The notes beneath the pieces were generated by a model, which had not been told where the DNA came from, did no database searches, and saw only the letters and a program-made list of their open reading frames with translations. Position numbers and translations under genes: made by a program. Positions 1 to 62,838 of a stretch of DNA of 64,000 nt are shown here, piece after piece. The stretch's first letter is position 1. Each line of letters begins with the position of its first letter. This DNA comes from Quercus robur (lineage: Eukaryota; Streptophyta; Magnoliopsida; Fagales; Fagaceae), in contig NC_065544.1 in assembly GCF_932294415.1 (NCBI RefSeq), forward strand, positions 13,863,351 to 13,927,350, written 5' to 3'.

Positions 1-548
1 TTATTATGAAAAATTGAAAATTTGTCAAAAAGTTAGTTAATTTTAATTTTTCACATAAAAGACTTTTTAAAATGGTTTATTAATGCATGTCCTAAGGGCA
101 TACGTTAGTAAAACCCTTATAAAATTTATATTTTCTAAAATTTTCAAGTATAAAAATAAAGATTTTAGATTAAAAATGAGACAAAAATCAAAGTCTAAGA
201 CAAAGTATATTCTACCTTTTAATTATGTTCTTTAATACTTAAAAACCCAATTAGGCTTGACAACTTCTTTTGTATAAATTGTATTATTTATTACCACACA
301 TGATATCCACAGTTGTGATTTTCTTAACTAAGCCTTTTTCAATCTAATAATTACAACAGCTTTTGTAATAATGTTTTAGAACTATCCTTTTTAATATTTA
401 GGTGATTTTTTCACCGACTAAGTTTCGTAGCAATCCAATATATTATTAGGGTTGACGAAGTGCACCTTCAACTTTCTGGATAATTAGTTTATTTTGAGTG
501 CATTTTGAGCTTCCGCACTTTTGACTTTTACAATTAACGCAGCACATT

Positions 549-616
549 TTGACAATTTCTTGTCAACTTGAACATTTGTATAGAAGAAATAGTAAGCACG
601 AGATTTACTATAAATA
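549..616 (+). promoter_or_regulatory. CRRSP promoter: inverted TTGAC pair plus TATA box (copy 1)
   Basis: TTGACAA (549-555), a 4-bp spacer and TTGTCAA (560-566) form a perfect inverted repeat of the TTGAC core bound by WRKY factors. The base after the core is A, not the C/T of the strict W-box, so WRKY binding is inference. A TATAAATA box lies at 609-616, about 60 bp before the ATG. The same module occurs at 38410-38477 and, inverted, at 54745-54811. Close variants precede the pseudogenes at 29491 and 55111. Confidence 0.6.
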
Positions 617-673
617 ACAGCTGCATGGACCAAAGTTTAAACCCATCAATCATCCTCTCATCTCCTTTTGACA

Positions 674-1402
674 ATGTCTTCCTCACACTTCACCTTCTCC
701 ATCTACTTTCTAACCTTTGCTCTCTTTCTCCAAACCATTTTTGGAGCGAGCCCTCTCTTCCATTTCTGTTCAAGCTCTGAGAACTTCACCACCAATGACC
801 CTTATGAATCAAACCTAAAAAAGCTCTTGGGTAACCTTTACTATCAAACCCCTCTCCTGGGCTTTGGTCTTGGTTCAGTGGGTTCATATCCATACCAAAC
901 TAATGGACTTGCTCTTTGTCGTGGTGATGTTGCAACCACAGACTGCAAGACTTGTGTCAATGAGGCTAGCAATAAAATTCACAAACTTTGCCCATACAAT
1001 AAAGGTGCCATTATATGGTACGACAATTGTCTTGTGAAGTACTTGAACAAGGATTTCTTTGGCCAAATTGATAATCAAAACAAGTTCTACTTGTGGAACT
1101 TGAGAAATGTTAGCGATCCGACAACATTTAACGAAAAGACAAGAAAGTTGTTGAGCCTCCTAGCCAAAGAAGCATCTGTTACTCCAAAACTGTATGCAGT
1201 TGGAGAGCTAGAGCTTGGAGAATCAAAGAAGCTTTATGGTTTGGCCCAATGCACTAGGGATCTTTCTAACAGTGACTGCTTCAAGTGTCTTGATGGTGTA
1301 ATTGGTGAACTTCCCCGATGTTGTAATGGGAAAGAAGGAGGAAGAGTTGTTGGTGGGAGTTGTAACATAAGATATGAGATTTACCCATTTGTCAATTCTT
1401 AG
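674..1402 (+). CDS. Cysteine-rich repeat secretory protein, CRRSP38-like (two Gnk2/DUF26 domains), copy 1
   Basis: The predicted protein has 242 residues in a single exon and should be secreted to the apoplast. A hydrophobic signal peptide spans about residues 1-25, with likely cleavage near FGA/SP. Two Gnk2 (DUF26) domains follow, at about 27-130 and 140-240. Each has the family signature C-x8-C-x2-C: Cys82/91/94 and Cys193/202/205, with further cysteines at 32, 106, 119, 216, 217 and 230. There is no transmembrane segment or kinase domain, so this is a CRRSP and not a CRK receptor kinase. Its length fits CRRSP38-type proteins. Members of the family include ginkbilobin-like antifungal, mannose-binding proteins; activity here is inferred. 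The ATG at 674 is chosen because it opens the signal peptide and lies about 60 bp downstream of a TATA box. An AATAAA lies at 1450-1455. It differs from copy 2 at two residues and from copy 3 at five. Confidence 0.93.
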   Translation: MSSSHFTFSIYFLTFALFLQTIFGASPLFHFCSSSENFTTNDPYESNLKKLLGNLYYQTPLLGFGLGSVGSYPYQTNGLALCRGDVATTDCKTCVNEASNKIHKLCPYNKGAIIWYDNCLVKYLNKDFFGQIDNQNKFYLWNLRNVSDPTTFNEKTRKLLSLLAKEASVTPKLYAVGELELGESKKLYGLAQCTRDLSNSDCFKCLDGVIGELPRCCNGKEGGRVVGGSCNIRYEIYPFVNS

Positions 1403-1827
1403 ATTATGTATGTCCTAGGGTTTAGAACTACCCATATGTCGTAACATGAAATAAAGTGTTTGTAGAAACACCCTTATGATGATTCTCCATTTTGGAAGAA
1501 TGCAGAAATAGAACCTACTTTGTATTTGTTGGATGTTTCAACTTTCAACCATCCTCATATGTTGTTAAATAAATTTTCTTTTTATGACTGTTATGGATAA
1601 ACGACAAATTTTGCATCCTTGAATGGACAAGTAGGGTGGATGACTTCAAAAAACTTAACAAAAAGTCTAATACTGTAATAAATTTTAAACAAATTTTACA
1701 ATTATTGAGGTGGCATTGGTATAAATGAAAAGTGATGTTAGTAGTAGTCTTACATGAAAATTATGTATACATTAATAACAGTTTATTACCTCAATAACTG
1801 TGAAATTTATTGTATTTGTAACATTGC

Positions 1828-1859
<32 letters not shown>

Positions 1860-1920
1860 AATATCATTGCTGAAAACTTAAACCATAACTATATAAAAAT
1901 TTTAAATGATTTAACTTATT

Positions 1921-2533
1921 TCTAGTACTTTTATTTATTGGAGATAATATGGGCATAACATATGTTATAAAATGATCATGTGTCAATCTCGTGTTTTGTC
2001 CAATATATAGGAGCACTAAAGAGAATTCTTACCCATTTTAAAACAATAATGTAGTACTACATTTCTTGGTTGCCAATTTCTTATGTGGCAAAAAATAAAA
2101 TAAAATAACAAATAACAATAACAATTATAATAATTAAAAGAAAAAAGAGAGAGAAGGCTGCTAACTGCTCTATATTAATTGTGTGTGTATATATATATAT
2201 ATTATCCTACTTCTCCTCTAATACATCTCTTGTGTAATAATTAACAAGAAAATTTTTTTAGTTAAACTCTAGTACTTTTATTTATTATTGGAGATAATAC
2301 AAGTATAACATATGTCATAAAATGATCATGTGTCAACCTCGTATCCTGTCCAATATTGAGGAGCACTAAAGAAAATTCTTACCCATTTTAAAACAATAAT
2401 GTAGTACTACATTTCTTGGTTGCCAATTTCTATTGTGGCAAAAAATAAAATAAAAATAACAATTATAATAATGAAAATAAAATAGAAAGAGAGATAAGGC
2501 TACTAACTGCTCTATATTAATTGTGAATATATA

Positions 2534-2567
<34 letters not shown>

Positions 2568-2615
2568 CACACTTCTCTTCTAACACATCTCTTGTGTAAT
2601 AATTAACAAGAAAAA
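1921..2615 (+). repeat. Two-copy direct repeat, about 347 bp period
   Basis: The unit starting CTAGTACTTTTATTTATTGG at 1922 recurs at 2269, with matching interior (GATCATGTGTCAA, GTAGTACTACA, TTGGTTGCCAATTTC) and a TA tract at each unit's end. The same pair lies at about 39772-40430 and, inverted, at 52755-53450. The local duplication is therefore older than the segmental duplications. Confidence 0.8.
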
Positions 2616-3589
2616 TTTTTAGTTAAACTAACTCTCACATAACTACGTATCTCTTTTTGCTAGTAGTGTCATTTTTGTTTATTTTTGTCTTTTCTTCTTT
2701 TTGACAAAGCTACCCAAATCCCAGGTGGTGATCGATGAGACAATACGTGTCTGTTTGCGATCCATTTATTTTACTGAAACTAAAAAATTTTGCTAAAAAT
2801 ATTGTAAATAAAAGTAAAAGTTAGCTAAAATAGTACAGTGAGACCCATGAATAGTATCAAAAAGTGAAATGAGACCCATGAATGATAGCAAAAATAAACT
2901 TAATAGTAAATAAGTTGACTTTTTAATTTGTGCCAAATGCACACTACATACTATTCCTCCTCTTTTTATATAAAAAATTTGAGAAACAACAGTGTGTCAT
3001 TGGATTTTTAGTATGGTAGAATGAAAAAATTTTAGGGAGAGAGAGGGAGAGAGAATCAGAAAAAACAAATCCTTTTTTTTAAGGTCAAACACTCAAACCC
3101 TAACCTTTTCTTTTTCTTTTTCTTTTTTTAATTATGGTCAAACCATGCATAACTGGCAGACGAAAACCAAGAAACTGGATTAGAAAAAAACAAATTATCT
3201 TTTTCTAGAACAAGTGACAAAACAAGACAAGGCGATGATTATATATATAAAATTATAAATGCAAAATCGCCTAAGAAATTACTGTGCCGCAGCACCAAAC
3301 ATTCAACTTTTTTTACATTGAACAGCTGATGTAATCACGGCAAGTTGGGTGGTTCGCTGTAATAATTGCTTTTCCCTTTTATGTAGGCCAAAAAAAAAAC
3401 TGCCAAAATAATGTGATCTGGGATAGAGCTTAAATCAATAGAATTGTAATAGTTGAACTGTTAAACCCGCCTTGCGAGAATGTATGCAGCACTATTTGCA
3501 GCTCTAATATCCTGTGTTGTTGAGATCGGTAAAATGAAAAAAAAAAAAAATATATGAATTACTTTTTTAAGATTAGTGTTACATTAATA

Positions 3590-3707
3590 TCTAAAAAAAA
3601 TTTTTTGAGAAATAATTACAATATGCTACTAACCTCACAGCTCGAACCCTTTCCCCCTTAGACCCCCAAGCACTATGTGCATGGGGAGGTGCCAATTCAA
3701 ATGACGC
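3590..3707 (-). mobile_element. SINE-like fragment
   Basis: On the minus strand this reads GGCACCTCCCCATGCAC, then GGGTTCGAGCTGTG (a B-box-like pol III promoter element), then TTAGTAGCATATTGTAATTA and an A/T-rich tail. That arrangement resembles tRNA-derived plant SINEs. Block C has different sequence at the same place (about 50745-50840). No clean TSD was found, so the call is tentative. Confidence 0.45.
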
Positions 3708-3935
3708 GTCAACATCAAAATTGGCCTATGCACTAAAGTGGAGCGGTTTACAACATTTAAGGATTTCATTTTTATTTCTTAAACTCTAAAGACCAAATTA
3801 GAAAACGAAGAAAATTTTAAACAATAAACTGGTATTATTCACATGAAACCCTCATATTAATTAGAAATTATATGTAAATTTAAATATGTATATTAATTAT
3901 TTTAAATTACATCGAATAATACACATCATGTAAGC

Positions 3936-3981
<46 letters not shown>

Positions 3982-4833
3982 ACAAAAACCCAAAGGTTCT
4001 TATTGATTATAAAATAATTTAAAATAAATAAAGAAATTCCTTATAAATATTTTAAAACTAATAAAAAAAATTGACTTTTAATCGAAACAATATTCACTTC
4101 TAGATATTTAAAACTTTTCAAATTGGATTTCAATTAAAGTAAACTATGTTAATAATTTTAATGTACTTATAATAAGTCATAGAGCAAAATTGTTTCATAC
4201 AACTTATAATACTTACATTTAGCACACATGTGATCAACACTTTCTTCGGTTGTTGCAAATGGTATCGAAGCCAATTGGTAATGCCATGTGACTCAAGAGT
4301 ATTACAACACAACTTGAACTTTGATGAGGACAAATGAAATTTATGTGAGAGGGATTGTGCCATCCCGATTATGTAAATTTGATTGAAGAAGAGTATTGAC
4401 ATTAATCTCTGTATAATATATGAAAAAAAGTTGTAAAATTTACATAGTTTTGCCTAAAAATGACTCATAGCAGTCTGTTTATAATTAGGTAAATTTATAA
4501 GTTTGCTACGGTAATCGTAAAAATTTATATTGACACTATTCATTTTGTATTTAGTTGTTTATTCTTTCTTTACGTATCTCAAGAATGAAAGAAGAGAGTA
4601 GATGATGGTTGTTGTGTGTGAAAAAAGAGAAAAAAAAATGATATTTTAATAAAATGTATTGTAAAACAAATAATCTGATATTGAGTATTTTGAAAAGTAA
4701 GTACCTAATAAAAAAAATGTAGGTTCTTTTGCTAAAATAAATAGAAATTTTTGTACGAGCAGGTACAAATACTCAGTATGTTTTGTGCAAACGTGTGTGT
4801 GAAGCTCATATTGGGTGTATACAAAGTCAAATT

Positions 4834-5846
4834 TGTTAGGACATATGTGATTTGATGTTAGGAACATATGTCAACATTTTATATAATTGGTTAATCTTTT
4901 GACAAAACACACTTTACTTGTAATTGAGTAGATCTAGGATATGTTTAATACTTAAAGAAACAAGGTTTTAAGTTCAAGTGTTAAAGCCATGCAAGTCTGT
5001 CCAAAAATAAAGTAATGAAGTGCTGAATTTTAAAACTCGACAGCTAACATTTATTGAAGTTTAAAAGCTACTGAAGTCCGTGGCTCGACAGCTAGCTCGA
5101 TAGATGACTATTTATCGAGGTTTATGAAACTCAGTTTTTCAGAGTTGTTTTTCATCTAATTCATGGGTATATGTTTAGGCTTTCTTTTCTCACAACCCTA
5201 AACATATATAATGATTATTTTGAGGGCCGTAAAAGGTTACACAAGTTGCACTAGAGTACAATTCCACAAGTGTGAAGAAAAGTGTGACCGAAAACCTAGT
5301 TTACCCTAATTCATCTTTCTCTTAAAGAAACTGCTGTGTTTGTACACCGTAGGGTTTTGTGACCAAAGAGCTTCTTGATTTTCATCATGTAATGAACTGA
5401 AAAACTTTGCAACCAACATTCTTCTTAAGTTGGTGATTAAGTTGCATACTAGGATCCGCACATCTATTGTTTAGCCACGTACTAGGAGCCGTGTATTAAA
5501 AGGAGAGATTATCACTACAAAACAAGTCCAATTAGGTATTGGGGTAAGGGTTCAACTGTAGGTTGGTATAAGGTACTGGGATTCCTTTACTTGTAAGCGC
5601 TTATTTTGATAATAATAGATTATTGGGAGTAGTGACTTTAAAATCACCCAATAGGGTTTTTGCTATGTAGGTTTTCCCCATTCGTAAATAAATCACCGTG
5701 TCAATTTATTTTCCGTTGCATATTTAGTTTAATTGGTGATTCGTTTGTGCTATCATGCAACTTGCATGTTAATTTGATTAATTAATAAACTTGACTAATT
5801 AATCAATTAAGTCATCACAAGGAATCAGTACATTCTTGGCCTATCA
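4834..5846 (+). mobile_element. Solo LTR (1013 bp) with 5-bp TSD AAATT
   Basis: The element starts TGTTAGGACATATG and ends GGCCTATCA. It is flanked by AAATT at 4829-4833 and 5847-5851. Block C has the uninterrupted site at about 49603-49607, so the insertion came after the A/C duplication. Part of its 5' end (about 4880-4960) resembles the reverse complement of the LTR of the nested element at 10874-16450, so it belongs to the same broad Copia-like LTR group. There is no internal region, which fits LTR-LTR recombination. Confidence 0.85.
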
Positions 5847-5851
5847 AAATT

Positions 5852-7944
5852 GGAATATATAAGTAATTACAAGGAGCCCCACTTGACATTAAGTAGTAGA
5901 TAAAAATAATGAAAATATTTTTAAATTTTAAAGAATCATGGTTATAAAACTTTAACAAAAATTAGTATTTTAAACTATGTTAATTCTTTTAATGTACATT
6001 TAGTGTATCACATGACATAGGAGAAACAATTGGGAAAATTAATTAAAAAAAATAAAGGAGAGGGTGTCCACTTAGCATGACCACAAATTATAGGATACAA
6101 CTTTTATTATATAGTATAATTATGATATTATTTAGAGATGAACTCATAATAAATAATTTTATTGTGAATATTTTGATGATATAATATACTATACAATAAA
6201 TAAATATAAAATATTATTTTAATGTGATAGTTATAATAGTGGAGAAGGTTGAATCTTAAACATTTTTGTTGGAGACACTAAAAGGTGCTAATTGAAAATT
6301 TTTACATTTATGAAACAAAAAACAAACTTTAGACAATATCCTACTGATAAAAGGCAAATTTCTAGGTTTCTTTTTTTATTAATTCTTAAATCAATTGGCC
6401 TCCCCAACCTTTTATTTATAACATTAATACACGATTTTATCATGATTCATCATTTTCGTAAATAAACTTCTTTTCAAATTTAACTACACATGAACTTTCT
6501 AGTTCATAATGTAATAATACAGTATCACACTACTTCAATAAAACTAAAAATTATATTTAAACCCCTCGTTGATTTTACAATGAAATTAATCAACTTATTA
6601 AATTAACCAATTATGTAATATTTGTTTAGAATTAACCAATTATGCACTCTCATTTGATTATTAGTTAATTACCATGAGCATGCGTTTTCCATAAGGAAAA
6701 CAATAAGCAATAAAAGAAGTAACACAAACAAAAGTACAGTGACAAAGTGGAAAATAGATAGAAAATATTTTCAAAGGAAAAACTACTACGAAAATAACCT
6801 ACCCCAACAAAGTAATCCACTATATCAAGAAAATTTTACTATCTAGATTAAAACCTTTAATCCTAGATGAACTTACTACATAAACCTTCTACAGCTCCAT
6901 AAATTTTAAACTCTTCAATCGATATATGAAAGCTTTCTAGGATGATGCATCTGTGTTCACGATTAGAACCTTTAACCGACTCCAAAAACCTGTTGAAGAT
7001 TTGAACTCCTTAGCATCACTCAAATGATGATGGCTTTGTAGTTCTTTGATCTCATTGATGAGAAACAACTTGAAAAATCTCTTCTAAACTCATGGGTACA
7101 CAAGATGGAAGTTAGAATTCTCTCTCTTATTGGAAATGGGTTTTCTACCTCTCAAACCATACATATGGAAGTCGTACGTAATAGTCTTTTTGGGTTAAAA
7201 GCAATCTAGCAACATTAATTAAAACACGTTAGTATAATATATTTTGCAATTTTCGATCAATTGAGTGTTAGTGAAACGACAATCGTGCGGCACTCAGCAC
7301 TTTGTGGAAATTACAAAGTTATCTTTCATTTGAATTGCATCTTGGACACTTGATATTGTACCTAAGTAATGAAATTTACCAACATCTTAAACCTAACAAA
7401 AAATTTTCATTTTCACTCTTAATGTTCCTCTTTATAATCCACCGATCGTAATTTACCACAAATTTTTTCTTCCTAAGAAAATGATCTAAATTTGAAAAAA
7501 ACAAATTAATTAACATGCTAAATATTACTATTGGTGGAATATAAAAGAGGAATACAATGCATAAAATGGAAGAATTTTGTACTTTTTTATATTTAAAAAA
7601 AAGGGACTCACGCGTGTGGTCACTGTCTCCCAAATATTTAAACCCTACTCATGATGTATGGTGTGTGACTGCCTTGAGAAGTAGTGGGGCTTGCCACTAT
7701 TCAAATCTACAACTTCTAAAATTACAAATGTGATAGATAATGAGAGCTACCTACCATTAACAACTCTATTAGGTAGTTAAAAGATTTTTGTATCAAATAC
7801 CGTAGAACTTTCACTTTTAATATTCTCATTATTGCATAATATTATTCAAGCTCCTAATTACAATTTTATTTTTAATTTTTTTTAAATGGATAGTAACTGG
7901 ATCAAAGTTTAGTTTTTGATTGCCCATTTTTGACTTTTGCAAAA
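5852..7944. other. Non-coding part of block A
   Basis: No gene is supported. The sequence matches the inverted copy at 42074-49600 apart from insertions there. It ends exactly at the insertion site of the 13.7 kb LTR element, in the remnant of a CRRSP-type promoter that continues at 21649. Confidence 0.7.
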
Positions 7945-9038
7945 TGTAAAGTTGAATTTAATCAACCATTTTGTTTGTTTTATTCCGTGCCAAATTTGCT
8001 TGTAATTTAGCATTTAGAAACCCTGTATTTAGGTGGGAATCATGTGAGGGTAGTATGTGAGAGAGTGTGAAGAAAAACTCAAGATTATCCACTCAGCAAG
8101 GGACTCGCGATTGGATCTCGCGACTTGCTCGCGGCTTGCAAGTCGCCAAGGGATGCACACAAGTGAAGCATGCAGAGGAGCTGAACAATCATGCTAGCTG
8201 AAGCACTACAGGACAAAAAGTCCAATCTGGCCATTCAATTAGCTCGGGACTCGTGACTCAGTCAAGTCGCGAGGCCAAGTCGCCAGTCCACTCTGTTTGG
8301 GAAAAACTGACTTTTCGCATTCCAAACACACACCAGTATAAATACCCATAATACCCACAAAATGTAAAGAGCTTCTAGAGAAAATTTTGAGAGAGAAACC
8401 CTAGAGAAAAACAAGATTGACTCATCCACAATTTTCATCATTTGATTCTCCAAATTCCTCTACTCTCATCCTCTTCATTGTTACATCCTTGAGAGGTACA
8501 TTAGCCAAAACATTTTCTCACCATACCCATATCTGTGAGGCGGCTATTTGGTGTTTGGTATGCAGTTAGAAAGGGATCAATTGATATTGGTTGATGCTAT
8601 GGGTTATAGCGGAATCCGGTAAGCTAAATAAGACAAAGGTTCGAAGTAACCTCGTTGGAGTAAGAAGCTTAGAGGGCTTAGGTACACTGGGTAGATTAGG
8701 CGTGGAGGGTGTTTTGCTGTTCATGTATCCAACTTCATTCTTTAGTGGATTATTGACCACTTGAAGGGCGGCGAAGAGGTTTTACGTTGAGGACTTTGGT
8801 TTCCTCTTCGATAACACATCACTGTGTTGTCCTTGTGTTTGCATCTCTCTTCCCTTAATCTTTGCCATTTAATTTCTGCTGTGGTTGTGACTTTATTTAG
8901 TTTAGATTGTTTTATCAATTCTGTTTTAACTTATGTTCACGTTCCACACATATATTGCTTGATTATAAGCTTGAATTGGTAATTTATTAATTGGGGGTCT
9001 AAACGTTCAAGGTGTTTTGTACACTAATTGAACATTTG
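7945..9038 (+). repeat. 5' LTR of the 13.7 kb element
   Basis: Matches 20559-21648 along its length. It has a TATA-like TATAAATACCC near 8337. Its U3 part (8100-8290) is unusually CpG-rich, with repeated CGCGACT / AAGTCGC motifs in both orientations. Confidence 0.9.
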
Positions 9039-9082
9039 ATTGGTATCAGAGCGGGTGCACTTGTTGTGGTTTAATTACCTTA

Positions 9083-10844
9083 GTGCGATCCTTGACCCCA
9101 TTTGAGATGGACCGATCTCAATCTCTAAATGCTCCACCATATTTTTATGGTAGCAGTAATGCTTTTTGGAAAGTCAGGATGAGAGCATTTTTGTGTTCAA
9201 TGGATAAAACCGTTTGGGATGCAATGGATATTGGATGGACTAGGCCAGAGGCTGCCAAATCCACGTGGAATAAGGCAACCCTCATAGCGTCTAATGCAAA
9301 TAGCAAAGCACTTAACGCCATTTTTTGTGGTGTATCTCCAGATGAGTTCCACAAGATATCTCACATTTCTATTACCAAGAAGGCATGGCAGATATTGGAG
9401 ACCACGTATGAAGGAACAAAGAAAGTGAAAGACACTAAGTTGCAGATGCTGACCACTCAGTTTGAGGAGCTGAAAATGAGTGAGGACGAGTCATTTGACT
9501 CTTTCTATAGCAAGCAGAATAAGGTGGTCATTGGCAAGTTCAACTTGGGTGAGAAAACAGAGGACTCAAAGATAGTGAGGAAAATCTTTCGATCATTGCC
9601 GAAGAGCTTCCGTGCAAAGGTTACAACAATTGAAGAAAGCAAGGACCTTGATGATATCAAAGTTCAAGAACTGATTGGCTCACTTCAAACATATGAGCTG
9701 TCATTGCCATCCCAAAGGAAGAGCAAATCTCTTGCACTTAAGAAGGTTAACGAAAGGCTAGAAGCTCACGACTCATCGGATGAGGATGTTGTCGAGAAAG
9801 ATGTTGCTTACCTTGTGAAAAATTTCCGTAAATTTTTGAAGTTCAAGAACAATGGAAAATTTGGCGATAAAGGGAGATTTCCAAGTTCTAGAAAGGAGAA
9901 AAAGGACTTCAAAAGGAAAGATGGAAATGAGTCTCAATCCACTCAAGGAGTCACTTGTTTTGAATGCAATGCACATTAAGAAGGAATGTCCTAATTATTT
10001 GAAGATGAAGGGTAAGGTGTATGCCACCACTCTTAGTGACTCAGACTCTTCCAATTCTGATTCAGAGGAAAGCTGTGACGGAGAAGGGAATTACTCTGCT
10101 TTTATGACTATTGATCAAGTTGAGTCTTCGGAGGACTTGAGTTTGCTTGCAGAAGAGCTTGGGGAGCATAGTGATGAGGAATCAATGGGAGTTGTGGAAG
10201 AATCGGATGTTGAAGAAGATGAAAGTACAGCGGATCTTCAAGAAAACTACAATTCCCTCCTTAAGAAGTCTGGAGAATATGCAAGGGTAGCCAAGGCAGC
10301 CGTTAAAAAGATGAAGAAGGCAAAGGAGGACTATAGAAGTCTCTTAGTGCGATAAAAGGAGGCCAAATGTGAAATAGAGATGCTGAATGGAGAGCTGACC
10401 GAAGCCTACTCAAAGATAAAATTTCTTGAACTTGAGGTGATTCAAGCAAATGCCAAAGTAGAGACAGTCTCCTCCAAGAAGCTAAATGAAGTCCTTTCTC
10501 ATCAAAAATCTTTCTCTGACAAAACTAGATTGGGATATACCGGAGAAAGTAGTTCGGCTGTGAATATCTCCAAGGAAGTAAAGTTTGTAAAAGCAAAAGA
10601 ACCGGTTGTAGTTGCCCCCACTGCTGAGAAAGTAAAGGTGGAGAAAAAGAAGATTGTGGCTGACCAACGGGTTTTGAATAAGCCCCGTAATCAATCAATT
10701 GTCAGGACTGAAGTCAAAGGGAAATCACTTCCAAAATCACAAAGAGGTCTAAGAACAAACCACTTCTGCCATTATTATGGAATTCAAGGTCACACCAGAC
10801 CCAATTGTCATAAGCTGCAAGCATTGAAGAATTCAAGTGCTTAA
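9083..10844 (+). other. Fossil Copia-type gag region of the 13.7 kb element
   Basis: The N-terminal part reads like the Copia gag family (DUF4219/UBN2-type), starting near the ATG at 9107 with MDRSQSLNAPPYFYGSSNAFWK. Two zinc-knuckle-like stretches follow, around 9955-10005 (CFEC...C) and 10765-10815 (CHYYGIQGHTRPNC). An acidic, Ser-rich and coiled stretch lies between them. The gag tail, ending DVWVKKGTHA, lies beyond the nested element at about 16456-16654. The nested insertion therefore split gag. Treated as a fossil. Confidence 0.8.
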
Positions 10845-11873
10845 AGGTCGAAAGGACCAAGAAATGAAAAAATTGTTAGGAAATTTAGACCCCGGTTGAT
10901 AGAATTAACAAGTTTTAAATCCAAGTTGTTAATTAGATTTATTATGAATAAAACTTGTTAAAACAAACAAATATCAATATCATTTCAAAATCATGCAACG
11001 AAAAAAATAAATAAAACAAGATATGATGACCCAAAAAAACCAATGAAACCAACCAATTTCATAGTAAAAAACCTGGGGGGAAACCTTCCCGAAAAGCAAT
11101 CCACTATAGTAAAGAAAAGTTTCAGATATAGTAAAAAACCTTTGTCCCTAAACTCTACAATCCCCGTAGATGAACTCACAGCATAAACCTTCTACCGCTT
11201 CAGAACCTCTGAACTCTTCAATATATGAACGCCACCCTTTGATGCACGAATCCCAATACGTGACTAATCAATTGCGTGGATCCCAGTACGCGACTTAATC
11301 ACCAACTAGAAGAAGATTTTTGGCTGTAAAGTTCTTCATTTCATTAACAATGAAGATCCAAAAGCACTTGGTTACAAAACCCTAAGGCGTAAATACGCAA
11401 TAGCTTCTTTTAGAGAGAACAAGGCTTCGGTCACCTTTTGCATATGTTCTCCTTATTATTCTCTTATGTGACGGCTCTAAAATAAGTTTTATATAGGTCT
11501 AGGGTTATGAAAAAAGAAGCCCTACACAAATACAAAAACTTGGGCCGAAAATCAGATCTAGAAATCTAAATTCCCATAACCTCGATCGATCGGGAGGTGT
11601 CAAGGAGGTGTTGAGATTTAAACTTCAATAGATACAGCTATCGAGAAGCTATCAAGCAGGTGTCGAGCTATCTGCCTGCAGGTGTCGAGCTATCTATCCA
11701 GCTTTAATGAACAACTTTTCTTCACTTGTTTCTTGGTCCAATTTTCATGGCTTTAATACTAGACTTAAACAACATGTTTTTTGAAGTATTAAACACATCC
11801 TAGATCTGCCCAAATACAAGTAAAGTGCATTTTGTCAAAGGATTAGCCAATTACACAAAATTTGTCCTTAACA

Positions 11874-12194: not shown

Positions 12195-12236
<42 letters not shown>

Positions 12237-38477: not shown

Positions 38478-38534
38478 ACAGCTGCATGGACCAAAGTTTA
38501 AACCCATCAATCATCCTCTCATCTCCTTTTGACA

Positions 38535-40852: not shown

Positions 40853-40890
<38 letters not shown>

Positions 40891-42481: not shown

Positions 42482-42526
<45 letters not shown>

Positions 42527-51744: not shown

Positions 51745-51791
<47 letters not shown>

Positions 51792-51892
51792 GTGGTAGGA
51801 CTCAGCCCGACACGCGAGTAGCGGCATCCCTCGCGCTTTGCGCCACGTCAGACGCGGGTGCAGCTCCTCTGACACTGCATCTGTGCAACCCA
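50951..51892. mobile_element. Mutator-like MITE, 942 bp, 9-bp TSD
   Basis: Present in block C only; A (near 3460) and B (near 41330) have the empty site. TSDs GTTTTAACA (50942-50950) and GGTTTAACA (51893-51901) differ at one base. Inverted termini share GCACAGATGC. Subterminal regions repeat ACTCGGGT / GGACTCGACA / GGACTCAGCCCGAC-type GC-rich phrases, and a 47-base A run lies at 51745-51791. There is no transposase; ORFs within are low-complexity. Confidence 0.75.
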
Positions 51893-52754
51893 GGTTTAAC
51901 AGTTCAACTATTACAGTTCCATTGATTTAAGCTCTACCCCAGATCACATTATTTTGGTAGTTTTTTTTTGTTTTTTTTTTTTGGCCTACATAAAAGGGAA
52001 AAGCAACTATTACAGCGAACCATCCAACTTGCCGTGATTACATCTGTTCAATGTAAAAAGTTGAATGTTTGGTGCTACGGCACGATAATTTCTTAGGCGA
52101 TTTTGCATTTATAATTTTATATATATAATCATCACCTTGTTTTGTTTTGTCACATGTTCTAGAAAAAGATAATAAATTTGTTTTTTTCTAATCCAGTTTC
52201 TTGGTTTTCGTCTACCAGTTATGCATGGTTTGACCATAATTAAAAAAAGAAAAAGAAAAAGAAAAGGTTATGGTTTGAGTGTTTGACCTTAAAAAAAAAG
52301 GATTTGTTTTTTCTGATTCTCTCTCCCTCTCTCTCTCTCTCTCTCAAATTTTTTCATTCTGCCACACTAAAAATCCAATGACACATTGTTGTTTCACAAA
52401 TTTTTTATTTATTTTTTATATAAAAAGAGGAGGAATAGTATGTAGTGTGCGTTTGGCACAAATTAAAAAACTAGCTTATTTTACTATTAAATTTATTTTT
52501 GTTACTATTTATGAGTCCTATTGCACTTTTTGATATTATTTATGGGTCCCATTGTATTATTTCAGCTAACTTTTACTTTTATTTACAGTAAAAAAATTTT
52601 AGTTTCAGTAAAATAAGCAGATCTCAAACAGAGACGTATTGTCTCATCGATCGCTACTTGGGATTTGAGTAGCTTTGTCACAAAAAAAAAAAAAGAAACA
52701 TAAACAAAAATGACACTACTAGCAAAAAGAGATACATAATTATGTGAGAGTTAG

Positions 52755-53165
52755 TTTAACTAAAAATTCTTCTTGTAATTATTACACAAGAGATGTATTA
52801 GAAGAGTAGGATAAAAATATGTATATATATATATATATATATACACAATTAATATAGAGCAGTTAGCAGCCTTCTCTCTCTTTCTCTTTTATTTTAATTA
52901 TTATAATTGTTATTGTTATTTTATTTTTTGCCACAATAGAAATTGGCAACCAGGAAATGTAGTACTACATTATTGTTTTAAAATGGGTAAGAATTTTTTT
53001 TAGCGCTCCTCTATATTGGACAGTATACGAGATTGACACATGATCATTTTATGACATATGTTATACTCGTATTATCTCCAATAATAAATAAAAGTACTAG
53101 AGTTTAACTAAAAAAATTTCTTGTTAATTATTACACAAGAGATGTATTAGAAGAGAAGTAGGATA

Positions 53166-53203
<38 letters not shown>

Positions 53204-53450
53204 ATTAATATAGAGCAGTTAGCAGCCTTCTCTCTCTCTCTTTCATTATTATAATTGTTATTGTTATTTTATTTTTTACCACATAAGAAATTGGCAACCA
53301 AGAAATGTAGTACTACATTATTGTTTTAAAATGGGTAAGAATTCTTTTTAGTGCTCCTGTGTATTAGACAAGACACGAGATTGACACATGATCATTTTAT
53401 GACATATGTTATGCATGTATTATCTCTAATAAATAAAAGTACTAGAGATA
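52755..53450 (-). repeat. 347-bp direct repeat pair, block C copy
   Basis: Inverted counterpart of 1921-2615 with TA microsatellites at 52820-52843 and 53171-53196. Confidence 0.75.
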
Positions 53451-53958
53451 AGTTAAATCATTTAAAATTTTTATATAGTTATGGTTTTATTTTACAGCAA
53501 TGATATTCTAAAAAAAAAAAAAAAAAATAGCAATGTTACAAATACAATAAATTTTACAATTATTGAGGTAATAAACTGTGATTAATGTATACATCATTTT
53601 CACGTAAGACCATTACTAACATCACTTTTCTTTCATACCAATGCCACCTCAATAATTGTAAAATTTGTTTAAAATTTATTGCAGTATTGGACTTTTTGTT
53701 GAGTTTTTTGAAGTCATCCACCCTATTTGTCCATTCAAGGATGCAAAATTTGTCATTTATCCATAACAGTCATAAAAAGAAAATTTATTTAACAACATAT
53801 GAGGATGGTTGAAAGTTGAAACATCCAACAAATACAAAGTAGGTTCTATTTCTGCATTCTTCCAAAATGGAGAATCATCATAAGGGTGTTTCTACAAACA
53901 CTTTATTTTATGTTACGACATATGGGTACGTAGTTCTAAACCCTAGGACATACATAAT

Positions 53959-54687
53959 CTAAGAATTGACAAATGGGTAAATCTCATATCTTATGTTACA
54001 ACTCCCACCAACAACTCTTCCTCCTTCTTTCCCATTACAACATCGGGGAAGTTCACCAATTACACCATCAAGACACTTGAAGCAGTCACTGTTAGAAAGA
54101 TCCCTAGTGCATTGGGCCAAACCATAAAGCTTCTTTGATTCTCCAAGTACTAGCTCTCCAACTGCATACAGTTTTGGAGTAACAGATGCTTCTTTGGCTA
54201 GGAGGCTCAACAACTTTCTTGTCTTTTCGTTAAATTTTGTCGGATCGCTAACATTTCTCAAGTTCCACATGTAGAACTTGTTTTGATTATCAATTTGGCC
54301 AAAGAAATCCTTGTTCAAGTACTTCACAAGACAATTGTCGTACCATATAATGGCACCTTTATTGTATGGGCAAAGTTTGTGAATTTCATTGCTAGCCTCA
54401 TTGACACAAGTCTTGCAGTCTGTGGTTGCAACATCACCACGACAAAGAGCAAGTCCATTAGTTTGGTATGGATATGAACCCACTGAACCAAGACCAAAGC
54501 CCAGGAGAGGGGTTTGATAGTAAAGGTTACCCAAGAGCTTTTTTAGGTTTGATTCATAAGGGTCATTGGTGGTGAAGTTCTCAGAGCTTGAACAGAAATG
54601 GAAGAGAGGGCTAGCTCCAAAAATGGTTTGGAGAAAGAGAGCAAAGGTAAAAAAGTAGATGGAGAAGGTGAAGTGTGAGGAAGACAT
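53959..54687 (-). CDS. Cysteine-rich repeat secretory protein, CRRSP38-like, copy 3 (inverted)
   Basis: The minus-strand frame of 242 codons begins at the ATG complementary to 54685-54687. It has a signal peptide (about 1-25) and two Gnk2/DUF26 domains with all cysteines of copies 1 and 2 retained. It differs from copy 1 at residues 13 (Phe), 101 (Glu), 140 (Met), 151 (Lys) and 180 (Val). The last two lose or gain charge on the second-domain side. Promoter (TTGAC pair 54794-54811, TATA 54745-54752) and AATAAA (complement of 53902-53907) were carried with it. Its promoter lies back to back with that of the block E pseudogene, about 570 bp between the two ATGs. Secreted, probably defence-related by family. 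Confidence 0.93.
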   Translation of the reverse strand: MSSSHFTFSIYFFTFALFLQTIFGASPLFHFCSSSENFTTNDPYESNLKKLLGNLYYQTPLLGFGLGSVGSYPYQTNGLALCRGDVATTDCKTCVNEASNEIHKLCPYNKGAIIWYDNCLVKYLNKDFFGQIDNQNKFYMWNLRNVSDPTKFNEKTRKLLSLLAKEASVTPKLYAVGELVLGESKKLYGLAQCTRDLSNSDCFKCLDGVIGELPRCCNGKEGGRVVGGSCNIRYEIYPFVNS

Positions 54688-54744
54688 TGTCAAAAGGAAA
54701 TGAGAGGATGATTGATGGGTTTAAACTTTGGTCCATGCAGCTGT

Positions 54745-54811
54745 TATTTATAGTAAATCTCGTGCTTACTATTTCTTCTTACTACTGTTCAAGTTGACAA
54801 GAAATTGTCAA
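54745..54811 (-). promoter_or_regulatory. CRRSP promoter module, copy 3
   Basis: Inverted TTGACAA / TTGTCAA pair at 54794-54811 and TATAAATA (complement) at 54745-54752. Same spacing as copies 1 and 2. Confidence 0.6.
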
Positions 54812-55260
54812 AATTTGCTGCGTTAATTGTAAAAGTCAAAAGTGCGGAAGCTCAAAATGCACTCAAAATAAACTAATTATCCAGAAAGTTGAAGGTGCAC
54901 TTCGTCAACCCTAAGAATATATTGGATTGCTACGAAACTTAGTACTTCATTTTGACCGATTTCTATTAGACGTCGTAATGATGAATCTCAATACTCTAAG
55001 GTTAAACATTAATTTTGAGGAAGGTTTGAAAGAAAATTTCACTAGTTAATTTAAGTAAGTGCGGTGTCCTTCTAAAGAGCATGAAATTGATTTTAAAAAC
55101 GCAGCCTACATTGACAACTTCGTGTCAACTTGAAAAATAACAAGGAAGAAATAATCAGTCCCTTTTAAATTTTCCAATCAGAATGAAGCTGATATTTAAT
55201 ATAAAGAAGTGCATCATGGTCCATAACTTAAATCCATCATCCTCTCAATTTCTTCTGAAA

Positions 55261-55988
55261 ATGTCTTCCTCACAGTTCACCTTGTTCATCTACCTTCTAA
55301 CCTTTGCTCTCTATCTCCAAACCATTTTTGGAGCCAGCCCTCTCTACAATATTTGTTCAAGCTCTGGGAACTTCACCACCAATGACCAATATGAATCAAA
55401 CCCAATAAAGCTCTTGGGTAATCTTAATTACCAAACCCCTTCCCTTGGTTTTGGTCTTGGTTCCGTAGGTTGGTACCCATACCAAACTTATGGGCTTGCT
55501 CTTTGTCGTGGACGCTACAGCCACAGACTGCAAGACGTGTGTAAATGAGGCTAGCAATGAAATTCACAAACTTTGCCCGTATGATAACGGCCGGTGCAGT
55601 TATATGGTATGATAATTGTCTTCTGAAGTACTCAAACAAGGATTTCTTGGGTCAAATTGATAATGAAAACTGGTTCTCCTGGTTGAATGTGCAAAATGTG
55701 AGTAACCCCACCATATTTAACCAAAAGACTAGGGTGTTGTTGAGCCAACTAGCCAAGGACGCGTCTTTCACCACAAAAAAGTATGCAGTTGGAGAGCTAA
55801 AGCTGAGAGAATCAACCAAACTCTATGGCTTGGCTCAATGCACATGGGACCTTTCTACCATTGAATGTTTTCAGTGTCTTGATGATGCAATTAGTCAACT
55901 TCCTAGTTGTTGTGATGGGAAAGGAGGGAGAGTTGTTGGTGGGAGTTGCAACATAAGATATGAGATTTACCCATTTCTCAGTTCTTAA
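55261..55988 (+). pseudogene. CRRSP38-like pseudogene (block E)
   Basis: The start region is intact: ATG 55261, signal peptide MSSSQFTLFIYLLTFALYLQ, then IFGASPLYNIC. The 2-bp deletion near 55511, shared with block D, replaces the first C-x8-C-x2-C with CRGRYSHRLQDVCK and a stop, giving a 95-residue truncated product. A second lesion, a 4-bp insertion (CCGG) near 55590, is unique to this copy. From there the second Gnk2 domain is open to TAA 55988. The promoter pair (55111-55128) and a TATA-like box near 55197 remain. A short secreted half-domain peptide is possible but unlikely to be functional. Confidence 0.88.
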
Positions 55989-56344
55989 TATTGGATTCAG
56001 GAGCTTGTTTATGATTCTTACTTTTAGAGAGAAATTAAGGAATAATTCTTTGTAGTTCTTTATTTTTCATTGGACGAATGTAATTATAAAATTCATTTTC
56101 AATAAATTGAATTTATTTTTGCCGTTCGATAAATGAAGTGGTGATTCCATTTGTAAGTCACCCGATTTAGAGGGGTAAGTAATATTGTTAGTTGAGCCTC
56201 CATTGTGTGATATACTATCGAAGAACACCAAAAATCCTATGTATTAATTGTTCATTGATCCTTCATTATGTGATACTATCTAGGAGCACCAAAAATCTCA
56301 ATCCACCTGGTTGCGATTTTCAACACAATTGCACTTGCTAAAAT

Positions 56345-57269
56345 TGTTGGTGATTGAGTGATGAGCATAAGCATATAAGAGAGAGCAAACATGGAGATTT
56401 ATGTGGTTCAGCTTAATGCCTATATACATCCATAATGAAAGTCCTGGGCAGCTAGATATTTGACATTAAGCTCTTGTTTAAAATGAATTCCATGTAGAAT
56501 TTAGATGCTAGAAAACCCGAGACTAATCTTAGGTTAATTATAGACTAACCCAATGTTAATTTGCTTATTCTACAAGAAAATTGGCCTACAATTGGATTGA
56601 ACCACTTGGACCATAATATGTCTAACAGCACTAACCACAATGCTTTTATCTTTCCTTTCCCTTAATAATTTATTTTGACAGTTGTTTCCTTCGCTACATT
56701 AACTATAGTTTCTTGTTGAGGTGAACAAGATGAAACTATAAAGTGTGACTCGCGAATGGGTGTTAGTGGAGCGGAGCACCAAGGTTCTTCAAAGCCAGGA
56801 TTATCAACTAGTGGATTTTTTTTTTTTTTTTTGAAAGCCAATGTTCGCTACCTAGTTTTTTGGATTTGTTCTACATAGTCAAGGATCGCAACCAAAGTGT
56901 TCGATTTTATTCTTTGTTTTCTAAAGGAGGTCAATGTAGCAAATAGGTTAAAGAAATAAGAAATTTCTCTAGTGTTTGTTATTTGTGAGAGAAAACTATT
57001 TAGGTGTATTGAGTTTGGGTCTTGTGAGAGTGTCTTTACGCCAGTTTTGTATCTCGTATTTGTTAGTGAAATTTTATCCTTATCATTGCTTGTGAACATT
57101 GGCAAAAGGTCGAACCACATAAATCCTTAATCCTCTCTCTTTTGTGTGTGGTTGTCTATGTTTCTTTTGGGTTCTTTTCTATTATTTAGTTTGGTGATCT
57201 TTCTAAAGTCATAATATTTTCATAATCATCTAATGTGTGAGTGCTATTTGAAAGCCATTTCCTACTACA
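56345..57269 (+). mobile_element. Old LTR-like segment with PBS (block E)
   Basis: Counterpart of 30715-31640, followed by TGGTATCAAGC. Confidence 0.5.
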
Positions 57270-57591
57270 ACTGGTATCAAGCTTCAGTTATTACAAAAAA
57301 ATGGTATCAGGGTCAATGGCTTGATGGGTAAGTGTTTGTTAGTAGGTACAACCATATAGAACTAGAAAAACTATCATGTCAACTCTATCCATGGTTAAGT
57401 AAAGGTTCTCTACTAGTTGTGATTGGTGAGTCAAGGTAATTATGCATATTGGTAACTCTCATAATTGTACAAGGAAGACTCATGTTTGCTCCACCCATCA
57501 TCAAATAAAGAACATTCTATTGGTAAGGTTATAGCATAACATATGGTATTTGAGCTTGTTTGTTGTAATAGCAGAAGCTCTAATACCAATT

Positions 57592-58500
57592 TGTTGTGCG
57601 AAATAGCTTTTGGTATTCCAACACAAGATTTTTTCCGTTTTGTTTAGACCCATGTACACTCAGATTGTTTAACCTAATTAATTAACTAAAGTTGATACTT
57701 GGGTTTATTATGCAGATTTAGGTTAAACACATATAATCATATCACATTGTGCAGAAAGGTAAAAAAAGACAAGCGATATAATTACCTAGGAAAAGCAATG
57801 AAACCAACAGTTTCAAGGTAAAAAACTTAGGGAGGATTTAACCTAATCTATCCTCAAGGCAACAAATTCACAATGATAAAATGGAAGTTTTATAATAGAT
57901 TTAAACCGTAAATCTAAAGCTACGTCTTACAATACTTACTCACACAACCATGTGTAGCTCCGAATCCATGAACTCTTCTCTTTGAATTTGTTGAACATAA
58001 ACACCCGGTTTGTAACTCTAAGATCCCACTCAAAGTTTTAAATCATCAGCTATGTATGATTTTGTATGCAGCAACTTAATCCACCAATTCTTGAATACAA
58101 ATCTTCTTTCTAGTAGATGTTTGTTGAGTTAAAAGGCTACAGAAACCTCACAAATCTCACAAGAGTAACTCACAAGACTTCCAAGAACTTCTAAAACATA
58201 TTTAGGGTTTTCCTTTTATACCTAGTAGTATTGGACATAAACCCTAAACATTTTCGCGAGCGTTGGGCCTGATTTAAAATCTGTAGAAAATGATCTTCGA
58301 TTGGTTGAGCCTTTCTTTTGATCTATCGAGCCTTGCAGAACCTGAATTCTTCTTTCTGGAACTTGACTATTCTTGAATATTGACTTGAACCTATATAAGT
58401 AATGTCTAACAATTAAACTAGACATGTTTTTGTTCTCAGTTTGCCAATGTACATAAAATTAGAACATCAACATTTATTCCTAAATATTTAGAACCTAACA
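57592..58500 (-). mobile_element. Old minus-strand LTR (block E)
   Basis: Counterpart of 31965-32871, TGTTGTGCG...GAACCTAACA, with the same PBS-like CTCTAATACCAAT on its left. Confidence 0.65.
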
Positions 58501-58918
58501 AGATTGATTGTGAAAATGCCATGGATTTAGAAATTAAAGATCACCAAATATAAATAATAGAAATGAGTTAAAAGATGGAGAAAAGTGGGATATTTTGCAC
58601 TCTTTTTCTTAATATCTAATGTGAAATTTCACTACTTAACTAACCACCACTCACACATGAATATTCTAACATCTATAAGATGGAGTCATGAAGAATAGAG
58701 AGAGATCTCAAAGGAAAAAGCAAAGTGAATATCAAAGAGAAACTAAATTTTGGACCGGGGGGGGGGGAGGAGTTGTACTATTATCATCAATTAATTATAT
58801 AGCTTGCGTTTGTTCATATTAATACTAGTGTATAGCTCCATGTATATACACGAGTACAATTAAAAATAATTATAATTATACGGGTTCAAATTATACATGG
58901 TATTAGTTTACACTTTTT

Positions 58919-58955
<37 letters not shown>

Positions 58956-59580
58956 CACACACACACACTAGAATTTAATTAGTTTTAGACATTTCGGTTT
59001 TTATATACCCAATAATTCATTTGCTACAAAAATTAAAAACTTATATGGACAAGTGGCGGAAAATTGGCCTCTAATAGAAATCTAATTTAGATTTGAATTG
59101 GATTTGGAATCTTCAATTTTTACACTTAATAATTCACTTGGTACAAACTTAAAAATTAAATGGGACACGTGGCATAAAATTGAGAATCCAATTGAATTTT
59201 TTTTTCATGATCTTTGGCTATATATATATATATATATTAGCATTAATACACCTTGTTGAGTATGCTAAAATAGAAGAGGAAGTTGAATCATAAAGTATAG
59301 AACACAAGAACACAAAGATTCATAAAGTATAGAACACAAGAAACTAAAGGTTTGTAATTCAACCTAATAGCTTATGTCCACAAAGGAAATCCTTAAGAGC
59401 TACACATTTAATATATGAGAGTATAGTACAAATCATGTGTTACAATGAACCATAACATGGTATATATATATATATATATATATATAGTAAGCTAAACTTT
59501 AGATTAACAATACATTGATTATGTTTAATAGACTTCTAGTAAAAGTAGAAGACTTGACTTGCACATATAAAAAAATTGTA

Positions 59581-59924
59581 TGTGGGTACCTAAGGCATGC
59601 TTAGGCATGCATGGCAACGTCCTTGGCCATCCTCAGCATGCTTTGCAACGTCCTCGGCATGCTTGGCAACGTCCTCAGCATGCTTGGCAACGTTCTTGAC
59701 CGACCTCGGCATGCTTGCAAAGTCCTAGTGGTACACTACTCCTTCACTTGAAAGCTTATAAGGTAGAAAGTTGGGGGTTTCTATTCGATGTGGGACGACT
59801 AGGACTTTGCAAGCATGCCGAGGTCGGCCAAGGACGTTGCAAAGCATGCCGAGAACGGCCAAAGACGTTGCTTGCATGCCTAGGACGTTGCCATACATGC
59901 CTAAGCATGCCTTAGGTACCCACA
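59581..59924. mobile_element. Foldback element, 344 bp, 5-bp TSD TTGTA
   Basis: Starts TGTGGGTACCTAAGGCATGC and ends with its complement, GCATGCCTTAGGTACCCACA. TTGTA flanks it at 59576-59580 and 59925-59929, and block D has the uninterrupted site near 33920. The arms are built from repeated GCATGC / AACGTCC / CTCGGC phrases. The inner arms 59700-59729 and 59798-59827 are perfect complements around a loop of about 68 bp. No coding potential is accepted. Confidence 0.9.
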
Positions 59925-60165
59925 TTGTACTTGAGCTAATATATCTTTAATAATATATTTACAGTCTAAGAAAGAAGATAAAATGAAAGGAACCGAACTT
60001 TGTTGCAATAATTTACAACCGATTGTTAACTGCACTAACATACCGCCTCACTAATTTAACAGGTTGCTTGCTTGGATGCTTAGTCCTTTTTTCAAGCTGC
60101 AACAAGTGGCGTATGCTGATTGCAACAGTGAGAGTACTAACCACTTGTGCTAATATGGCCTTGAA

Positions 60166-60202
<37 letters not shown>

Positions 60203-61769
60203 ACATATTTTCTGGTGGAGGTGGGGAAGAATCATTTATACTCTGACCATGTTTTTCTCTTTAAAAAACATATACTCGGCCAACAGATTTAAAAATGAAA
60301 AAAATGAAAGGGTTTTGTATTTTATTCCATCATTGCATCTGAATCAATACATTATTGTTAAAAGTCTGGAGCATTCTCCATCCAGCACATGCTATGTCTA
60401 GCTAATAAATTGACTAAGATTTTCTTCTCGATCACAATTTTGTGTCAAAACTTTTGTCATAATTTTGATGTGATAAATAATGAGTAACCACTCATCACCT
60501 TCATATGAATCTACCACTTTATTTCTTCAGTCAAACACATCAAAATTATGGCAAAGTTGTATTCATCAATTTTCTCAAAGCTAAAAGCTAATAGATATGC
60601 AGTATTGTTTCCTTGTCTTCTAACGTACATGTTAATGCCAACATTTTTTTACAATTAGCTGGTTACAATGGGGACAGAATAGAGAATTGAACCTTAGATA
60701 TTTTTATTAAAAATATTAAGAGATGTCATTTAAACTACAAAACTCTTGGCATCTTCTAAAATAGCTCAGTCCATGAAACAGCTTTACAGACAATGCAAAT
60801 CTTGCTTCTTCTTTTTTCTTTTTTCTTTTTTTTTGTGATTAAAATCTTGATTTGTAAATCCAAACCACAAAATAAAATTTAAGGTCTTATCTAGCACATG
60901 AGAGCAAACAAGTCAAGGTCTTATCTAGAACATATGATTATTCGTAAAGATTCTAGGCATATACGCTTAATCACCCAAGAAATTACGCGCGCGGAGCGTA
61001 TATAAGTCATGGCAACAAACTATTCTGCCATTGATAGAATGGTTTGTTATAATAGTCTTCTTCTTTTTTTCTAAAAAAAAAAAAGAAGCTAAATTTCGCC
61101 AAAATAATGCGATCTTCGATCATGCTGATATCAGTGGAATCGAAATGGTTGAAGATAGTATTTTGCAGCTCTATGTATTTAGAGTACCAATTGCTTCATC
61201 CTTTCTTGTCACAATTCATCAAAATTTAATTAGCTTCATATGATAGGAGAATAAATATCCCTTCAACTTAATTATTCATCAATTATATTAGATCAGTGTC
61301 TGCCTCTAAGAAAAAAAATAAAAATAAAAACGTGTGTTATGTTAGAAGGAATAGATTTATGTTATAAGGAATAGAAAGGGATTGTCTGACAAATTAAATT
61401 ATCGTCGGTGAAAATTAAAATGGAATACACACGTTGAGAAATAGGATTTTGATTTGAGAAGGGAGCTGTTTGGTGATAGATTTCCTATATGGGTTCTTGG
61501 AATAGTCCAACTGAATTTTCATGAACCTGTTTGACCAATGGCAGATCCAGAATTTCAGCTTTGTGGGGCCTATAAACCCAAAAAAATAATAATAATAAAT
61601 AATCAATAATGAAAATATGATAAGATTCAACACTAAATTAATGAAATATTTATAAAAAAAATTAGAAGAAATGAAAAATTAAAATTAGTGTCCATTAAAT
61701 ATTAACGAAGGGAAAGACACAAATAATTATTTATCAATACATTAAATCAATCATTTATCAAGTAGAACT

Positions 61770-61980
61770 TGGTGCTTTAACCTTGCTGTCAGAATATCAG
61801 AGACTGATGGAAGCTCAGACCGGTCGTTGATTTTTTTTGGAGTATTGTGTTCTTTTTTTTAGTTTGACTGAAATTCCCAGCTAAGCCCTACGGGCGGCTT
61901 TGAAGTCTGGGTCTGCATGTGTTTCACTCTGGAAGTATGGCTCCAAGTTCTACTACGTTGTCGTATTCATGAATAATCAA
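61770..61980. other. Block E-specific replacement of unknown origin
   Basis: Block D has about 25 bp here (CATGGCATACTTTTAAATCC); block E has about 210 bp of more GC-rich sequence that ends ATGAATAATCAATAAAATTATC. It could be a 3' UTR or LINE tail fragment, but I do not recognise it. No TSD was seen. Confidence 0.5.
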
Positions 61981-62838
61981 TAAAATTATCTTTGATAAGT
62001 TTTCTACTATGATTAACACTATTTTCCTTTCAAAGTAAATAATCAAAGAGTCTTTGAGAGAATAATATTACATTTTGTTGTGAGGTTTAGTTTTAACAGT
62101 ATTCGTGGCTGCAAAAATGTCGGCTTTGTAGTTGCAATAAGTTGGAAGATTGTTGATTCAAGAACGGAGTTAGTACTTGGAATTAGGAGGCAGTTCAGTT
62201 GTTGGTTGAGTGCAACGACTTTTACCTTCAGCTCTATTGCTTAACCATAGAAGTTTTTTTTTTTTTTGTTTTTTCTTTGTTGCATGCGTCTACAGCTGGA
62301 TAAGGACAAAATTATTTTGTTCAAATTAAACTTTTTAGAGGGCCATGTTATTTGTATTGGGTAAAATAGGTTGATTGAGCTTAATATTTTTTGGGCTTTA
62401 TTATTGGTAATTTTTGTTGTTAGGCTAATTTTTTTGAACATGTATATTTTGTTTTATATTTTAGCTCTATAAATTTTTTAATGGAATTTAAAAGGAGGAA
62501 ATATTAGAGTTATAAATTTTTTTACAAATTACTAGTATGTAAAGTGGTTATTGGTGAGTAAAAAGATGATGTAAATGGTAGATCCAAATACGAACAACAA
62601 GAATTTGTTACTTTAACTGTTTGTAAAAATGTTGTATAAAAGTTTGTGGTTATAGCATTACTCTTAAAAGAATCAATGATATTATTAATGAAAAGAGACT
62701 AACTTTATAGAATAAAATTGTTAAAATTAGTAATTATGTAAAAAAAAATAAAAAAAATAAAGGAGGGGTGGGGGAGAGATTTGTCCCTAAGTCTTTGTTT
62801 GCTAGCTGATCTTTATAATCACTACTAACCAATTGGCA

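Follow-up and report, generated by a model that had tools for sequence, protein, structure and literature searches.

The 64,000-nucleotide window of the Quercus robur genome considered here (bases 13863351-13927350 of the 56.6 Mb contig NC_065544.1, in a genome of 786 Mb and 42 contigs) is part of an array of genes for cysteine-rich repeat secretory proteins (CRRSPs) with DUF26 domains. Its layout is best accounted for, with a probability of about 0.7, by unequal crossing-over, one inverted duplication or inversion, insertions of long terminal repeat (LTR) retrotransposons and gene conversion. Letters name DUF26 genes and the blocks around them; coordinates are those of the window, negative numbers lying to its left and numbers above 64000 to its right (Table 1). 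A block of D-type, A-type and F-type genes multiplied in tandem, most likely through unequal crossing-over between DUF26 genes, at which gene Z, which looks like an A-type/D-type chimera, would hint. Within the second unit, a copy of the A-to-F interval that resembles B came to be inverted as block C, probably either through an inverted duplication or because a unit since lost was inverted. LTR elements entered A (two top-level, one nested) and C, with further ones in the Z-A and E-G intervals, and genes A and B have since undergone ectopic conversion, as the statistics indicate.

The tandem growth is visible in direct repeats of a multi-gene unit. Comparison of 264 kb of the same contig (the window, 120 kb to its left and 80 kb to its right) reveals a unit of a D-type and an A-type gene (plus an F-type gene) in the series Z-A-F, D-B and E-G-p99, where A, B and C on the one hand and D and E on the other name two positions within one unit. 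Matches of at least 150 bp were listed within the window and of at least 120 bp in the 264 kb, together with a further 264-kb list of at least 700 bp. Four matches link D-B with Z-A: 29474-31016 with -18387..-16835, 31012-34021 with -15723..-12773, 34010-36441 with -7665..-5319 and, as a single match of 90.1%, 36439-41459 with -1389..3596. D-B, which is continuous, and Z-A are therefore one and the same block, split in Z-A by inserts that include a single copy of the element 1 LTR at -16834..-15726 (78%). E relates to G (80281-82265) as D does to B, but the match is broken into pieces; upstream of G, 0.5 kb at 79514-79998 matches B 37685-38173 in the opposite orientation (92%), which makes a second inversion, a small one, within the array. 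A tandem model running from A..D to B..E, favoured first from the window alone, was rejected, since over the extended stretch the unit starts with a D-type gene. The division into A / B / inverted C and D / E made in a preliminary description of the window was likewise a window-edge effect, and most corrections to that description arise because its map stopped there. On the contig, at least 18 DUF26 loci lie between 13755394 and 14176622 (~420 kb; fragment F is not among these), 16 on the plus and two on the minus strand, C being one of the latter; a genome search with gene A gave at least 150 matches (150 of 242 candidates scored).

Within the window, blastn comparisons recover direct matches between A and B (1-3596 with 37860-41459, 91.2%) and between D and E (29325-33928 with 54944-59586, 92.9%, further pieces reaching 36671/62838), and inverted matches between A and C (417-3489 with 54943-51869, 92.4%) and between B and C (38280-41338 with 54942-51893, 93.1%). 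Matches of 3 kb at more than 90% leave no room for chance. The order A ... D, B, inverted C, E and the reading as an inverted plus direct segmental duplication were thus already right in the preliminary description, with the correction that A continues to 7944, is interrupted by element 1 and resumes at 21649. C is the sole inverted block in the window, running from 54943 down to ~42070 with its own LTR element inside. The direct joining of C to E holds and is placed at 54943/54944 rather than 54945/54947. Among the five breakpoints proposed before, 42074 (here ~42070) and 54946 stand as rearrangement junctions, whereas at 41515 an LTR in B has its left edge, 62838 marks the boundary of a different LTR element and 36674 is no junction at all: since 36439-41459 matches in one piece, neither 36674 nor the start of B at 37860 is a breakpoint. 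B and C were also described as facing arms separated by an LTR remnant; the arms are inverted, but a short remnant alone does not separate them, as the homologous parts lie 9,248 bp apart. The open reading frames (ORFs) of B and C lie tail-to-tail at a distance of 14.7 kb, while C and E stand head-to-head with 575 bp between their start codons; both neighbourhoods are products of rearrangement.

Both ends of C are non-homologous junctions, one of them lying in the truncated LTR near 42070. The reading of this LTR as a complete solo element was rejected, as related copies extend to ~870-900 bp; the sole 5-mer that might be its flanking duplication (41517/42088) misfits the TG start, lies in sequence shared with A and is attributed to chance. 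Two routes to C were considered. The first, to which we give somewhat less than an even chance, assumes an extra tandem unit between B and E, in which the A-type gene was turned round by an inversion accompanied by a deletion at each end. Tandem multiplication of the unit is seen elsewhere in the array, another DUF26 copy of the array (C40:13800647) is likewise on the minus strand, and outside the gene B and C differ by ~5%, as two separate copies; yet this route needs an inversion plus two deletions, and the block comparisons reveal no remnant of a D-type gene of the lost unit between B and E. The second, which is more tentative still, is one replication-based event in unit 2: template switching from the end of B to the opposite strand, copying from the F promoter back as far as 417 and a further jump forward to 29325, which would yield in one step inverted C, a duplicated 417-3645 and the loss of 21719-29324. 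A single path fits both junctions, with B ending at the equivalent of A 3645, C running from 21718 back to 417 and E starting at 29325, and B and C are sisters. However, the LTR at B 41515 is missing from C; that chromatid did not serve as the template of C once the LTR was in place, and either the LTR/C junction is secondary or the donor was another allele. Template switching of the FoSTeS/MMBIR kind (fork stalling and template switching/microhomology-mediated break-induced replication) leaves microhomology of a few bases at junctions, and the values read by eye here, 0 bp at 54943/54944 and 0-1 bp near 42070, fall below what is usual for it. Misassembly of haplotypes or misjoined copies is very improbable: the plant may be heterozygous, but the contig spans 56.6 Mb, the 264 kb contain no N, and the copies differ by ~5-10% in their flanks and carry LTR elements with target-site duplications (TSDs) and empty sites.

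The order of insertions can be read from these elements. All three top-level ones have a TSD and an empty site in the sister copy; for element 3 the empty site in A differs by one base (TGTGG near 6080). Transversions per site between the LTRs of elements 1, 2 and 3 are 0.0194, 0.0113 and 0.0073, against 0.0195 (80/4097) in the pooled A-C flanks (1501-3460, 3689-4833 and 6880-7944, with 417-1500 and 5847-6887 excluded), which fits insertion after the A-C split, with the first element likely entering soon after. An origin of element 1 before the split, suggested by LTRs that differ more than the A-C flanks, was rejected because transversions occur at the same rate (21/1083 vs. 80/4097, p = 1.0), which leaves its excess differences as transitions (86/1083 vs. 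167/4097, p = 7e-7). Element 1 has a copia-type gag at 9032-9979 and, at 18672-19586, an open frame of 304 aa with a match to PF20167 (putative plant transposon protein, E-value 1.3e-20). Relatives of the insert at 4834-5846 lie at 75246-76267 and -109964..-108933. Element 3 contains, at 45848-47150, an 81-82-bp unit repeated over 1.3 kb (~16 copies by length, 15 in register), and related arrays are found at -26.3 to -25.6 kb, -4.4 to -3.8 kb and 115.0-116.3 kb. Adjoining its site, 5847-6887 of A, which has no long ORFs, differs from C (44130-49608) by 2.7%, vs. 6% around. For the element at 62838-74402, a TSD scan gave no clean target duplication, and homology to D does not return before 36690 = 74761; the edge at 62838 therefore reflects either an insertion accompanied by some loss or a product of recombination.

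The second line of evidence concerns the genes themselves and was absent from the preliminary description. Silent divergence around genes A, B and C is 1-2%, compared with 5-7% outside. In the flanks (1591-3380), quartets group B with C and A with G at 16 of 18 sites; within the gene (500-1590) none of six sites does so and five place A with B (gene vs. flank, p = 0.0002; one further site at 417-499, AC/BG, lies outside the test). The tree covers 14 of the 15 copies compared (array loci 13984107, 14054065 and 14176115 were left out of the comparison, and the piece at 82816-83306 out of the tree). This switch of tree between gene and flanks points to gene conversion between A and B, an ectopic exchange of sequence that the statistics bear out; gene C probably took part as well.

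Alternatively, high identity of the genes could reflect purifying selection or a low substitution rate near them, which we consider unlikely. Non-synonymous change is indeed constrained (ratio of non-synonymous to synonymous divergence, dN/dS, 0.19-0.60 over tabulated pairs, from 11 of the 15 copies), repeat-rich sequence gains transitions, as the element 1 LTRs do relative to the A-C flanks, and a mild island occurs in the G pairs too. Yet A-B synonymous sites are depleted (1/154) while the synonymous divergence (dS) of A, B, C or G to D-type copies is 0.40-0.53 (0.46-0.62 for the piece at 82816-83306, outside that range), the tree changes within the gene (p = 2e-4), and D and E have an island despite sharing a frameshift. 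Several observations weigh against conversion or the wider scenario. The quartet inside the gene has six sites only. Run-length shuffling, a weak test, gave 36/5000 for A-B with four copies and 178/5000 with three, and 145 to 4958 of 5000 for the other pairs, uncorrected for their number. At synonymous sites alone, B-C and the three G pairs show no difference from the flanks (p = 0.18 to 0.36). When near non-coding sites are added, the G pairs give 25/517, 27/515 and 20/516, compared with 8.5-9.2% outside (p = 0.007, 0.005 and 0.0003), and this milder island means that part of the gene island may be a lower substitution rate near the gene. D-E divergence climbs gradually, the gene-adjoining stretch being weakly different (47/1486, p = 0.023). 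Z could be a product of conversion rather than of crossing-over, and the junctions of C fail to separate inversion from template switching.

Table 1. Features of the DUF26 array in and around the window
Feature	Position	Strand	Remarks
Block A, part 1	1-7944	+	unit sequence extends left to ~-1389; blastn
Block A, part 2	21649-21718	+	promoter-like stretch ahead of gene F; homologue in C at ~42138-42070
Block D	29325-36674	+	continues into B without a break
Block B with left part	36439-41515	+	36439-41459 matches -1389..3596
Block C	42070-54943	-	B-like copy, inverted, of A 417-7944 (lacking 4834-5846) and 21649-21718
Block E	54944-62837	+	blastn
Junction C/E	54943/54944		A 417 (inverted) joined to D 29325; microhomology 0 bp (by eye)
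Truncated LTR	41516-42070	+	~555 of ~870-900 bp; starts at end of B, cut by C junction
Solo-LTR-like insert in A	4834-5846	+	1.0 kb, TG...CA, TSD AAATT; absent from C
LTR retrotransposon 1 in block A	7945-21648	+	TSD CAAAA, LTRs 9.9% apart; C is the empty site
LTR retrotransposon 2, nested in element 1	10874-16450	-	TSD AAAAT, LTRs 6.8% apart
LTR element 3 inside C	44930-49368	+	TSD TGCGG, LTRs 5.2% apart
Left part of LTR element separating E from G	62838-64000	+	LTRs 62838-63285 and 73956-74402 (92.6%)
Gene Z	-18224..-17499		intact unit member just left of the window
Gene A	674-1399	+	intact 242-aa ORF, two DUF26 stretches, hydrophobic N-terminus
Gene F fragment	21818-22175	+	DUF26; closest regional copy p99 at 98735-99098 (83.6%)
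Gene D	~29640-30357	+	frameshifted DUF26 gene
Gene B	38535-39260	+	intact 242-aa ORF, two PF01657 stretches
Gene C	53962-54687	-	intact 242-aa ORF, two PF01657 stretches
Gene E	~55262-55988	+	D frameshift plus own 4-bp insertion
Gene G	80686-81411		intact unit member just right of the window
D-B vs. E-G pieces	36690-36798 = 74761-74863; 36848-37264 = 76782-77190
D-B vs. E-G pieces	37685-38173 = 79998-79514 (inverted); 38131-40103 = 80281-82265

The three intact and three broken DUF26 copies reported earlier were recovered, the intact ones being A, B and C and the broken ones D and E, both frameshifted, and the fragment F, whose gene copy was located at 21868-22174. Each has two PF01657 stretches (E-values 3e-38 to 4.8e-38, 3e-38 for A); a Pfam search of the 242-aa ORF found PF01657 alone and no kinase, further exons not having been searched for. 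The N-terminus of the 242-aa proteins is hydrophobic by eye, and the motif C-8X-C-2X-C, as given by Vaattovaara et al. (2019; PMC6368629), where DUF26 is described as land-plant-specific, is present in the translations, by eye, as CRGDVATTDCKTC and CTRDLSNSDCFKC. Gene A matches, over both domains, the structures of cysteine-rich repeat secretory proteins 2 and 15 (PDB 6gre and 6grf; E-values 3.2e-21 and 1.4e-20) and, with its second domain (residues 142-236), ginkbilobin-2 (3a2e, 4xre; 3.3e-8), all of them distant relatives in sequence. Carbohydrate binding or antifungal activity is known for some CRRSPs. The products are predicted to be two-domain DUF26 proteins, likely secreted and of an antifungal or apoplastic defence type. 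The D/E frameshift is common to both genes and absent from the 13 other copies of the comparison. In the array, p99 follows G. A fifth A-type piece directly after G (82816-83306) has a dS of 0.15-0.19 to A, B, C and G, and so is not homogenised with them. Repeats of ~350 bp form a tandem pair downstream of A, B and C (1904-2629, 39756-40436 and 52753-53463). An Rfam scan at gathering thresholds found no RNA genes.

Vaattovaara et al. (2019) reported that CRRSPs have duplicated in tandem and, using GENECONV, that conversion has occurred between vCRK copies in lineage-specific tandem arrays, and the locus is a further member of this already described tandem growth and conversion in the DUF26 superfamily. 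As in the expansions described in the available part of that paper, the proteins are secreted, mostly two-domain and encoded in tandem arrays; unlike there, a block of several DUF26 types was multiplied, one of the copies lies inverted between non-homologous junctions, and both the breakpoints and the order of insertions are readable. The conversion reported there concerns cysteine-rich receptor-like kinases (CRKs), not CRRSPs. A literature search combining gene conversion with cysteine-rich repeat secretory proteins gave no paper, and none of the related matches listed was on the DUF26 family by title. Ectopic gene conversion in a plant gene cluster was likewise described, in the part of the source available, for HMA4 of Arabidopsis halleri (PMC3749932), whose genes, unlike those here, encode metal pumps. 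At the VIM4-VIM2 inverted-repeat locus of Arabidopsis Cvi-0, as far as the available text describes it, inverted paralogues could similarly pair as one transcript, a 2.8-kb deletion bringing the genes near enough for read-through and small interfering RNAs (siRNAs; PMC13213937), whereas the ORFs of B and C are 14.7 kb apart. The gene stem of B and C is ~850 bp at 99% identity, and the pair might act as a natural hairpin locus whose read-through transcript gives siRNAs tuning the A-type copies A, B, C and G. We regard this as highly improbable, a role like that at VIM4-VIM2 being unlikely given the B-C distance; if it were true, the conversion that keeps A-type copies alike would also keep them jointly silenceable.

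Overall, the locus represents ordinary gene-cluster evolution, though unusually readable, and it leaves the accepted picture unchanged. It orders events within one array, through LTR insertions with empty sister sites, an inverted copy and gene islands that differ from their flanks, and offers a compact case in which to test how secreted genes of the defence type may multiply and stay alike.

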